From positions 10,578,169 through 10,642,168 of the forward strand of contig NC_087072.1 in assembly GCF_026151205.1 (NCBI RefSeq): a stretch of DNA of 64,000 nt. The letters run 5' to 3'. Made by a program: the position numbers and the translations under genes. Source of the stretch: Bolinopsis microptera. Taxonomy: Eukaryota; Ctenophora; Tentaculata; Lobata; Bolinopsidae. Shown here in pieces: positions 10,795 through 46,700 of the stretch. The notes beneath the pieces are model-generated. The model was given only the letters and a program-made list of their open reading frames with translations. It did not search any database and was not told the origin of the DNA. How positions within the stretch are numbered: position 1 is the first letter of the stretch; every line of letters begins with the position of its first letter.

Positions 10795-13700
10795 GTACAC
10801 AGCTTGCTTATATTTTTCTAGTAACTATCTTACAATTTGTCTAACAAATCTTACAAGGAAATCACTTAGCAATTAGAGAATAAGTAAGACTAACTTAGAG
10901 AGTTTGAAAAATTATAAAAATCAAAATATTTCGCGTAAACTTAAAAACAAACAAAATTTGACAAAAACAATAAAAATAAACACAATAAATATGAAACACC
11001 GTAAATTTCCGCAGTCTTAGATGCAGACAAGAGCAATGAAATTATATAATTCATTAATTCAGCTAATAATGTCCGGATCACCAATTATTCCCAACCAAGT
11101 GTTTTTATACTCATGCTTATGATTTGGATTTAATGTTTTAAATTTTTTGATATTTTCCACGTGCTCTGCACATGGGTACTGGAAGAGCAAACAGTCGTCC
11201 TCGTATAAGTAGAGCAGGCCGTCCAACTGTTCCGTTGACAGGGTGGAGTAGTAGCTGTAGAACATCGTCATATTCAGGGCAGGGGTCTGGTTTGTCATCC
11301 ATCTCTCACTGTTCGTCTGGAGAGATTATTAGGTAAATTTGTCTCAAAATAATTGTAACATGGGAAATGGCCTACGCCTGAATTAAATTAGTTTGGTTTC
11401 TTTTGTTTACTTACGACGAGTCTGAGGTTGCCGGTTAGGTTGAACATATTTTTCAGATCACAATCAAATGTTTCCGCTTTAAGCAGAAAATCGTATCTGA
11501 AATGTTTAATTGTATCAACACTGTCACTAGCTTTCGGGCATAAGTGAGACGCTAAAGAAAACTTAGAAAAACTATCATTGTTGGTAGCGATATAGTTTTT
11601 CATGATATATTCTCCACAAGTTCCATATATCATCAAATTATGTTGCTTACTGAGTTGAACCACATGGGCCACATCTCTGACTAGCTGGGATAACGTGATT
11701 GTTGCCCCAACCGGCTATCGTTGCATCCACAATTTCCTTAAATGTGGGATATGGTGGACATAAATATGGGTTGTCTTCTTCTGGTTTCTTCTCATTTTTG
11801 CCCTCTGTCATCGATGCTGCATAGTTTATTGCCGCCCAAGCTGGCACCTTCTTTTTATCATTATATATAACAGAGCGAGTAATCCATTTTATTGGCCGAT
11901 AATGTATCATGAAGTCTACGAAAGTTGTTCTCATAAATAAAGCTGGGTGGCTTAACAGCTCCACTTTGTTTCTGTAAAGGGAGAGTAATCTTCTGAATGG
12001 ATCTCGAACCACCAAAAATCGTTTCTCGTCTTTAGGCGGAGGATCCTTAAGAGAAATCAGTGTTATTAAAATAATTACATCTATTAATTTATGAAGTCAT
12101 ATTTACATGATTATGATACGAAATTTTGGGATTCTTCCGATATTTTCGATTTCCGGAATCAAGTATGTCATAGATAATGATAATATGTCTTTTAAATTTC
12201 TATGGTAAACACTCATACCATTTAAAAATCGTCCGTATCTACTAACCTTTTCTGTAAAGTCGTCGTTTTTTCTGAAGCCTCCTTCGAAGTTCCACTCTTT
12301 AACATGCCTGTCCTGACATGTTTCGTCATCAAAATAGTCGCTGCAGAAATGTGCGAACACGCTTGAGGACGCTGCCTTGTACACTGGACACCATCCCAAC
12401 AAAGATTTGCTGAAAAATTGAAAGTCGAAATCGAAAATGGAAAACTAAATAGATTGAATGTACAAGACAATCTCAGAGTTATAGAGTTATATAATATACC
12501 TCTACAGTGTACAGAGTACAGGTACAGAGTACAGGTACAGAGTACAGGTACAGAGTACAGGTACAGAGTACAGGTACAGAGTACAGAGTACAGGTACAGA
12601 GTTAGTGTAAAATAAGATGGCACCAGACCAGTCCTCCCGAGGCGTACCGATGGTCTACAGTGCCTGCTCACAAAGGTGTACTCACAATATACACTACTCA
12701 CTCAGTCGTTCTTAGCGACTGACAACCGCAATAACTCACAATATCTAAGTATTGAACTCTACGTTAATATAACAAATACGATATTCTAGTACCGTACACG
12801 GAATTAACAGAAAGGGATACTAAGGTGTTAATATCGAGAATATGAATCAAATGGGAAATATAAACTCGTTACGAACGCTAGTAGAAACACTAAACTCTTA
12901 GAACTTGCACTTACTCTGAATTGACTGAAACACGATCTTCGAGTATCGTAAGCTTACTAATTTACCCCACACGGAAATAGGTGAGGCAACTTTAATTTGA
13001 ACGGTATAATGTGGTACAATTCGTTCCTACGCTAGTGTTGAACAAGGGAAACAGTTGAATCGATTAATAACGTTCGAAGATGAAATATACGGTTAATTAA
13101 CAACAATTAACAACTATAAACTGTGGCAATACGGGCCACGCCGGTTCGTTCCAGATCAGCGGTTAACACTTTGATTGAAAGTTAAACACGTCACCTAAAA
13201 AGCTTTTCCAGAATTGACTCCAACGTGTCCAGAACTGCGTTATCGACCCGCGCCACGTGATACCACGTGGTCACCCACGTGGTACCGCGCGGCTCGGCCC
13301 AGCCATAAAACTATAACAAAACCTACACGCCCGACTATCACGTGCCCTACTTTACACAAATCTCTAAACCTAACTACTCTAAATCTACACTAATCCTAAC
13401 GGTTTTTCTTCACTTAACTGCAATATCCTAACTAAAACATGACTACTAAAAACTGCTTAAAAATCGCTGCGACCAGCCTACACATTACACTAGAGTACAG
13501 GTACAGAGTACCGGTACAGAGTACAGGTACAGAGTACAGGTACAGAGTACAGGTACAGAGTACAGGTACAGAGTACAGGTAAAACTTACTATACTTTCTT
13601 CAGCGTCCACGTCATATCTGACCAAATAAAATCCGCTAATGTTAGTCAACTTTCCCTATCTATACTAATAATCCCAATAATCTGTGGGTGTTTGTGTGGG

Positions 13701-43700: not shown

Positions 43701-46700
43701 GTGCTATCATGACAGTGAATGGGCAGTGAACTAGTGTGCTAATCGTCTAGTTTTACTTATTCCTCAGGTAATTTTCAGTAGTTGATTTGTTGTGTGCCTG
43801 ATCTTGTTGATTTACGTAGCCCAGGTAAATTATGTCACAGAAAAGGTGGCCATTCTTCATCGTTTCCTGAGCTTTGTAGTTCTATCATTACACGCTTTGC
43901 TGATTTCTTATAAATGCTTATTGAGAAAATACTAAATGGGTAAGTTATGCGACTAATGTTGTGCTCGGTAATAGCTAATATAGGACCTTTATTAAAAAAA
44001 ACACTAGCGCATAGATCCGGATGAGAGTACGTTGTTAGCCAGTTGATATTGTCGTCATAAGACGTGCCATACTTTGGTATTGCACTATTTAAATGATGAG
44101 ATTGCACTGTCATTCTAGGCTATGATATACTGTATACATTACTAATACTACTCGTAGTATTTACAGCACCAATTAATAGTCCGTACCCACTGACCTTTTC
44201 TTTGAAGTCCTCTCGTTTTCTGAAGCCTCCGTTGAATCTCCACATTTTGACATGTTTGTCCTGACAAGTTTTATTATCATAATAGTCGCTGCAGAAATGT
44301 GCGAACACGTTTGAGGTCGCCGCCTTGTACACTGGACACCATCCCAATAAAGATTTGCTGAACAATTTAAAATTCAAATTTACATGAAAGTTTACGCAAA
44401 AAGATCTTTTAACGTACAGTACATATCTTTTAACGTACATGGTAGCTGGCCTTTAATCTAGGCGGACATCACGTGAGTTCACGTAATGTCCAACCAAATA
44501 AAATCTGATAAGGCAAATATCAATCTTAGGCCCAAATTTCGATAGCTCGATTATTGTCAAGTCGCGATATCTTTGTCCCTTTTGTCAATAAAACAAATTT
44601 TAACATATATTATATCTAATATCTCTGTTGTAAATTGCTGTTAATTATAATACGATGTACTTACGGGAAGTAAAATATCTCCCTTATTTTTGTTAGTTTC
44701 GATCTGACACTTTCAGTGAAAGAACTAAGGGTGTTGTTACATTGTGACTGTATCCAATCTAGCTTTCGTTCGTTTTCTTCCGAGAACTCTCTGCATTAAG
44801 ACATTTGTTCGGTGTGGGTGCATAAAAATCGTTCAATTTTATGACGTAATTTTAATATAAATCTTGGACTATGGCTCTAAATTAAAATTGAAAACAGATC
44901 TTCTAGAAACCTATATATTTTGAAGGTCAAAATATCTCACTCTGTATTAGGACACAATTGGTCAGTTTGAATATTCTCCTCAGTGTTGGGAAGCTGTAGA
45001 GATGCAAGGGAAGTTTTGAGCTTTTGATCGCTTTGATTTCTGATTCCAGACAATATCTGGGCTGAGGAAGGTGCCCGATGCTCCTCATCATTTCCCTCTT
45101 GTATAACGTTCTGGGATTATATTTCAATGATAGATATTGGGCTTATGATGGATCATGGAATATGTTTCAAATCAGTAACGTTGAAGGTTGATTGGGGTTA
45201 AGGAAAGAATAGACTTGTTGTAGGAACAAGAGGATTCAACGCAACCGGTTGTTTTAAGATATATTATCTTATAAAATGTAAAAACTAAAATATACGGTAT
45301 ACTAGATTTAACAGAAACTTACCGTACATGGTATGTTAACTTGAGAAGACCCAAGAGAAAAACATACGAACCCGAATACTAGCAAGAAACATACTGTGCA
45401 TCCGTAGCAGAAAATCTTTTTTAATAAAGTCATAAACTACTATTTAATAAATTGAGTTAATTCAAATAACATTCAGGTTGAAACCACCCCTAATTAGAGA
45501 AATATAATCTTTACTATTGGCGGAGATCATCTAATTGATGATTTAATATGAGCCACAAATAAGTAAAATATCAATTTTATGGAATAAATAAATCAGATAT
45601 CTTATATACAACCGACTAACCTCCTAGCCCTAATTCATTAACAGTACTAGTAATCTGAACTTATCATTGCAGGGAGAAATATCCAGTCTGAAATCACAAA
45701 TCTGGCAACTCCAGACTGATGTGTCATCAGAGAGAGCAGCTAAGAAAGCAGTCGATGCTAGGCTCTCAGAATTGAAACTCAAGCTGGAAACCTCAAACTC
45801 AAGCTATGAAAAAGAGGTATGTTTCCAACGATATACACCACCTTCACACCTCAATAATTGATGAAATAAAATAACTATTATTGTCAGTCGCTAAGAAAAC
45901 AGTTGACTGTACAGTGATTTCGTATTATTTAAGTTGTTTTGAGTAAATAACTCATTAAGTTAACCACCTTTAGTTGGAAACAAGCAAAGAGAACATGAAC
46001 TCATACCGAATGAAGTATAACGAGTTAGCCCAGAGTACTAAGGAGATGAACGAAATAAGTGACGACCTGACAAAGAAAGTCAGACAATTAGGTAAGTGAT
46101 TGTCTTGGGTTCTTCGGTAGACACTACAGGGGAAGGGTAGAGGCAATATATAAGTGCGGTGGGTGCGAGTCGCACTATTGACCTAATACCGCACTTTTCC
46201 GCACCATCGTCCAATATTCGTGCTACTAAATTGGTACACTTGGTAATGCTGTGTGTACTGTGCGGTAAGAAAAGATCGACATGCTCATAACTACGATTAG
46301 GGTCAAACGTTTTTTATGACGTAACATCATGATTAAAAACATCAGAAAGGAAGTATTACTTTTTTAAATTAGGAAAAAAAAATCATAATATAGAACGAGA
46401 ATAAGTTTTAAAACGAATTACTCCGATACTCCTTGCAGTATCCCTAAGGACTAAGGAGTTTATAAAAACGCCTCACGCTTAAAGGACGATCAGATAGCGC
46501 CAAAAAACAGCTTACTGTTCTCCTGATCTACAGAGCGTTATAGTGAATAATATATAAAGACGATCAGTGAAATTGCCAGTTCTCTAGATGCTCTAGTTAA
46601 ACAAGCACAACTAACAAGCACAACTAACAAGCACAACTTAACATAACAGAGGTTTAACTAATGAGCCAGACCGATTACTGGTGACTGATCAAAGCATCAT

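Follow-up and report, generated by a model that had tools for sequence, protein, structure and literature searches.

Four antisense sulfotransferase genes in what appears to be one RIM-BP intron of the ctenophore Bolinopsis microptera

Can a small family of enzyme genes occupy a single intron of a synaptic scaffold gene, and if so, how did the family come to lie there? These questions are raised by a stretch of 64,000 nucleotides from Bolinopsis microptera (assembly GCF_026151205.1, contig NC_087072.1, positions 10,578,169 to 10,642,168 of the forward strand), hereafter the window. For this stretch, the original prediction proposed four intact sulfotransferase (ST) genes tandemly arrayed antisense inside one intron of a RIM-BP gene. 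Our analysis makes it quite likely that the locus is a ctenophore nested intronic array, in which four Golgi-type ST genes lie antisense in one 35-kb RIM-BP intron and are independently transcribed, the family having spread by DNA-level copying. Positions are those of the window unless a contig is named; contig C1, of 26,206,493 bases, is the one that carries the window. In line with a ctenophore origin, the best PDB (Protein Data Bank) matches of an ionotropic glutamate receptor (iGluR) protein of this genome are a Mnemiopsis receptor and, after it, a second ctenophore-type kainate-like receptor (4zdm, from Pleurobrachia); a stretch of the first gave 81% identity over 114 aa.

Four ST copies were rebuilt exon by exon with their splice sites on the minus strand, at 10.8-45.7 kb of the window. 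The models and the putative intron that holds them are as follows.

10795..45672, plus strand: putative host intron holding the antisense array, 34,878 bp, from splice sites, exon scan and constrained chain
11059..16343, minus strand: ST1, 431 aa; exons 16343-16242, 15910-15720, 15544-15440, 12409-12247, 12045-11651, 11496-11415, 11316-11059
18066..20654, minus strand: ST2, 428 aa; exons 20654-20544, 20236-20043, 19846-19742, 19398-19236, 19052-18679, 18502-18421, 18323-18066
23464..26175, minus strand: ST3, 408 aa; exons 26175-26077, 25719-25589, 25065-24946, 24752-24590, 24483-24110, 23901-23820, 23721-23464
42282..45433, minus strand: ST4, 443 aa, with an altered C-terminal tail; exons 45433-45323, 45110-44941, 44790-44665, 44357-44195, 43301-42928, 42781-42700, 42587-42282

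All 24 introns of these seven-exon genes are of the GT-AG type, and the cumulative intron phases are 0,2,2,0,2,0 in each of the four. The coding sequences (1296, 1287, 1227 and 1332 bp for ST1 to ST4) each close at the first in-frame stop, and all four fall inside 10795-45672. The rebuilt genes therefore bear out the original prediction of intact seven-exon copies with identical phases and whole codon numbers, lying antisense in what looks like one RIM-BP intron. Exon 7 of ST4 has one base fewer near its end than that of ST1-ST3, and its C-terminal tail has 20 residues versus four in the other three. Upstream of the modelled start codon, ST1 and ST3 have one or two out-of-frame ATGs.

The four proteins match PF03567 (Sulfotransfer_2) in Pfam at E values of 1.1e-23 to 3e-22, with scores of 80.4-85.1 bits against a curated cut-off of 22, and the matches run from profile position 2 or 3 to 252 of 252. 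Two motifs, WCPV[YF]KAA[ST]S.V and VVRDPFRR[IL]LSLYRNK, which we take to be the 5' and 3' segments that bind 3'-phosphoadenosine 5'-phosphosulfate (PAPS), are found in all four proteins; the patterns were drawn up after inspection of these same sequences. PF03567 includes carbohydrate sulfotransferases of the chondroitin, dermatan and HNK-1 type, and an N-terminal hydrophobic anchor is typical of Golgi type II enzymes. ST1-ST4 resemble these carbohydrate sulfotransferases in the near full-length domain match and in a hydrophobic stretch near the N-terminus of each protein, recognized by eye. A Golgi location and sulfotransferase activity are therefore predicted for ST1-ST4. The ST2 protein had no match in the Protein Data Bank (PDB) at E≤1. 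In the part consulted of a study of a ctenophore, "Sulfotransferase" is listed among the tentacle candidate genes (PMC6278862), which hints at a role for STs there.

Divergence at synonymous sites (dS) among ST1-ST4 is 0.20-0.41, and the proteins differ by 16-28%. Over the full length, the ratio of nonsynonymous to synonymous divergence (dN/dS) is 0.31-0.54 in the six pairs, and none of 1000 codon bootstraps reached 1 or more in any of the six. ST1-ST4 are therefore under purifying selection, in line with the original prediction that they are probably functional. Exons 1-3 are looser (dN/dS 0.37-1.17 in the six pairs of ST1-ST4), which counts against the proposed explanation.

The divergence of the copies also bears on whether the array or its placement is an artefact of the assembly, by haplotypic duplication or a misjoin. 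A frame change in a host exon, described below, means that the assembly may contain errors. However, the window does not contain any N, the flanks and intron sizes of the copies differ as well as the proteins, and host exons stand on both sides of the array on a single 26.2-Mb contig. Copies that have diverged this far make a duplication artefact unlikely, and we consider an artefact of either kind highly improbable.

A genome search with ST2 gave 84 matching pieces, which were sorted into copies by position and order. The copy set does not take in two pieces at C10:7.10 Mb or pieces of PF03567 genes (82 matches) whose relationship is clearly more remote. In addition to a fifth open copy and a truncated one, it contains six dispersed relatives (STa-STf), one of which is broken.

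C1:10561064-10564519 (window -17104 to -13649), minus strand: ST0, the fifth copy that is open, about 14-17 kb beyond the left end of the window
about 36295..36703, minus strand: truncated ST copy inside the big intron, limited to exon 1 and the beginning of exon 2
C1:13.36 and 13.62 Mb: STa and STb, near-identical to each other
C1:12.53 Mb: STc, a broken copy
contig C2: STd
C1:2.0 and 3.2 Mb: STe and STf, more distant relatives

The open frame of ST0 extends over 1242 bp and six exons; its intron 4 is no longer an intron and is partly read in frame in a fused exon 4-5. It may sit in another RIM-BP intron, as the exon scan places candidate host exons there. Exon 1 of STa was not found within the 10 kb covered, but there is a candidate at a distance of 23 kb. 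An aligned AG precedes the modelled ATG by 6-14 nt in each of the eight copies inspected for it (ST0-ST4, STb, STd and the 36.7-kb fragment), six of them having it at 6 nt; this AG could be a cis acceptor, a spliced-leader acceptor or a mark of mere shared ancestry. With ST4 cut back to its stop, ST0-ST4, STa, STb and STd give 28 pairs over exons 4-7; dN/dS is 0.16 for STa-STb and 0.26-0.57 for the other 27.

The phylogenetic tree of exons 4-7 does not follow the map. ST2 joins STa and STb, which are located 2.8-3.0 Mb away (support 93/93), ST3 joins STd on contig C2 (96/98), and ST0 pairs with ST1 (100/98). The approximately unbiased (AU) test rejected a single clade of ST0-ST4 (p-AU 2e-5) and one of ST1-ST4 (p-AU 6e-5), and both the tree and the tests were unchanged with exon 7 of ST4 trimmed at its stop. 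ST0-ST4 do not form one clade and dispersed copies interleave with them, so the array did not simply expand inside the intron, and the gene-family expansion envisaged there by the original prediction is not supported. Its strict form, in which the array arose from tandem duplication inside the intron alone, the dispersed copies being older paralogues unrelated to it, seems to us quite improbable in view of the two rejected clades and the distant partners of ST2 and ST3, even though the four copies share one orientation, ST0 and ST1 are sisters, and gene conversion between loci could distort the tree.

Traces of exchange between copies may be visible in single exons. For the pair ST0-STa, dS is 0.04 in exon 4 and 0.26 in exon 5; the unevenness suggests exchange between loci 2.8 Mb apart, with the reservation that exon 4 is short. 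Exons 6-7 are near-uniform among the copies, and trees of these exons are not resolved. The uniformity may come from gene conversion; against this, it could reflect constraint instead. Homology in the flanks (600 bases compared) mostly ends within tens of bases of the ATG and the stop, and in some pairs extends for at least 200 bases.

Observations were also made in the surroundings of the copies outside the four. Directly after the truncated copy, on the same minus strand, are two coiled-coil exon-like pieces (36010-35700), probably a copied fragment of another C1 locus because they have relatives at C1:11110546-11113356. Coiled-coil frames run on the opposite strand within intron 6 of STe (C1:2.01-2.02 Mb; L039:2329-7329), which may be a further case of two interleaved antisense genes. 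Beside STa and STb, long frames that look by eye like reverse transcriptase lie on the minus strand (L035:351-4100 and L036:7164-8756).

The second part of the question concerns the host. On the plus strand, coiled-coil frames flank the gap on both sides, and three SH3 domains are located at 49.1-50.9 kb. The host features next to the intron are as follows.

10390..10794, plus strand: predicted RIM-BP coiled-coil exon 5' of the big intron, phase 0-0, from sequence and exon scan
45673..45816, plus strand: predicted RIM-BP coiled-coil exon 3' of the big intron, phase 0-0, from exon scan and constrained chain
49123..50997, plus strand: RIM-BP 3' exons with SH3-I, linker, SH3-II and SH3-III, from SH3 search and Pfam

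With an SH3 query joined by hand, the five best PDB matches are all RIM-BP chains, including 2csi (RIM-BP2, E 8.3e-20) and 4z8a ("RIM-binding protein, isoform F", E 2.5e-13); GRB2 comes next at 7.8e-12. The same query gave one weak match outside the window (E 8.2e-7) in the 264.65 Mb of the genome (232 contigs), so the RIM-BP gene appears to occur once in this genome. A survey of the RIM-BP family including Mnemiopsis, as far as the part consulted goes, reports a single gene in invertebrates except sea urchin (PMC7565545). Of the order SH3, FN3 array, SH3, SH3 that defines a RIM-BP, Pfam shows the three SH3 domains and, in the SH3-I/SH3-II linker, only a sub-threshold match to Ig_RIMBP2 (E 0.005, below its cut-off). 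The three SH3 domains, a linker with this weak match and the putative N-terminal coiled coil are shared with RIM-binding proteins such as RIM-BP2 and isoform F, whereas the very long coiled-coil part, extending over tens of kb, and the frame change in SH3-I set the present host apart.

At the left border of the intron, the donor CAG/gtacac follows 10794 in phase 0 (score 0.4), and at the right border the acceptor ttgcag/GGA at 45673 is strong (score 8.1) and also in phase 0, so that the two exons are joinable in frame. A scan for coiled-coil exons, run with a reverse-strand control, gave 21 plus-strand candidates above threshold, 14 of them in phase 0-0, and two on the reverse strand. In the constrained chain, the two host parts score 103.6 and 106.3. 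The two RIM-BP halves would then form one transcript, and the host, SH3 exons included, may span about 88 kb.

Several points weigh against a single host with one uninterrupted intron. The donor at 10794 is weak, and seven of the 21 candidates are not in phase 0-0. Both the exon scan and the constrained chain were trained on the RIM-BP exons of this window, so the high scores of these exons are circular, and the left-flank candidates and the reverse-strand control are the independent part. When a splice-chain gene finder was trained on 21 reading frames from this genome, its chain ran through transposon frames and failed to make the 10794-45673 join. The reading frame of SH3-I shifts near 49205-49216 with no space for an intron in this assembly, which is either an assembly indel or a real break. 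A free plus-strand chain inside the intron scores 56.9 with 28 exons, most of them very short; some small host exons may therefore have been missed, and these would divide the intron. One of the 21 candidates, the coiled-coil frame at 37107-37444, lies inside the big intron. It is modelled as starting in phase 1, incompatible with the phase 0 of 10794, and has a sub-threshold match to HIP1_clath_bdg in Pfam (E 6e-4); we read it by eye as a transposon frame.

The halves could instead belong to separate genes, a coiled-coil gene ending at about 10.8 kb and a RIM-BP gene starting at about 45.7-46 kb, with the ST array intergenic. The exon at 45673-45816, which would then stand at the start of the second gene, has no in-frame ATG, and it has a strong acceptor, phase 0 and a coiled coil like that of the preceding exon. 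Read-through past the weak donor, on the other hand, hits a stop at 10819, and the acceptor at 45673 could be a trans-splice site, since spliced leaders are common in the ctenophore Hormiphora according to the part consulted of its genome report (PMC8527503). Same-strand coiled-coil candidates, however, go on leftward beyond the window, as far as -37.5 kb; nine of the 21 are found there, seven of them in phase 0-0. We regard separate genes as unlikely and retain a single host gene across the array.

Within this host intron, the spans of ST1-ST4 total 13,738 of 34,878 bp (39%). A second large component is a mobile element.

26301..32721, no strand assigned: mobile element with long inverted repeats and internal tandem repeats, between ST3 and ST4, from self-comparison

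This element comprises 6.4 kb, or 18% of the intron. Its inverted repeats are at about 26301-28811 (interrupted at 26643-27584) and 30650-32721, and its internal tandem repeats are of about 256 bases. A genome search with the 1,733 bases of 30650-32382 gave 291 matching pieces, which are not element counts as the stretch has internal repeats, on at least 13 contigs among the matches listed. Six further places match the whole stretch at 90-96% among the 40 scored of 187 candidate places. The element is dispersed genome-wide; Pfam at E≤0.01 gave nothing for its 27033-27671 frame. A hAT C-terminal domain was also detected by Pfam at 14.3-14.9 kb, inside the 3.0-kb intron 3 of ST1, and a CA repeat occupies 21.0-21.4 kb. 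The earlier claim that the array stretches the intron to about 35 kb thus holds in part: the ST spans account for 13.7 of 34.9 kb, that of ST1 including the hAT fragment, but the dispersed mobile element adds 6.4 kb of its own.

We propose the following course of events based on the gene models, the tree and the host exons. Each ST gene would be transcribed on its own, with its seven exons spliced together; the primary transcript of the host would pass through in the opposite direction and remove the ST genes as intron. The family would have spread by DNA-level copying of whole genes with their introns, to nearby positions as well as to remote ones on this contig and on a second, and later gene conversion between copies may have kept exons 6-7 nearly uniform. 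The ST genes are predicted to be expressed, and most likely each is a Golgi sulfotransferase gene in its own right whose place in the intron is incidental. Antisense interference between the ST genes and RIM-BP is possible.

A more far-reaching interpretation, which we hold to be doubtful, takes RIM-BP as a giant host locus, with coiled-coil candidates from about -37.5 to 48.6 kb, whose large introns would hold several antisense families: two of them the five open ST genes, and a third one receptor-like frames. Exchange would go on between the nested copies and relatives megabases away, and the mRNAs would perhaps be matured with spliced leaders. If this were true, nesting would couple the expression of a synaptic scaffold to glycan-modifying enzymes.

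Other frames were noted around the window. Two related frames on the minus strand (1129-1995 and -5142 to -4147), antisense to the putative RIM-BP span, resemble seven-helix receptors. At E≤0.01, Pfam gave nothing for both of these frames, for two frames at 59-63 kb and for an Ig/mucin-like frame; the labels "receptor-like" and "Ig/mucin-like" were assigned by eye. Left of the window, at about -2200 to -270, there is a tandem array with a 405-base period and about five copies (L022).

Nested genes on opposite strands were reportedly described in Drosophila by Henikoff in 1986, and a glue-gene cluster of several related genes lies within an intron of the Drosophila gene dunce. The present locus is similar to the Drosophila cases in that unrelated opposite-strand genes lie inside an intron, and differs in the host and the nested families. 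In the ctenophore Hormiphora californensis, 2357 nested intronic genes are reported in 1654 hosts, 1109 of them flanked by a transposable element on one side or both (PMC8527503). Genes within single introns, several per host in a figure example and on both strands, are a feature common to that genome and this locus; here, all four genes belong to one family and lie on one strand, a case not described in the consulted part of that report (PMC8527503). These numbers weaken the original view of the nested array as unusual. In the listed titles and abstract openings of the literature on ctenophore nested genes, RIM-BP and sulfotransferases, on the Bolinopsis microptera genome assembly and on tandemly duplicated nested genes opposite in strand to their host, no description of such an array was found. 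Each element is already known, and the same-family antisense quartet in a RIM-BP intron stands as a new instance.

The locus is a tidy example of ctenophore introns accepting passengers, without a new mechanism. The consulted part of the Hormiphora report names nested antisense genes as a route that has been proposed for the control of transcription in early animals (PMC8527503). With a synaptic scaffold gene as host to a small family of enzymes, the locus is a concrete place to study interference between strands, the use of spliced leaders, and gene conversion linking nested copies with dispersed ones.

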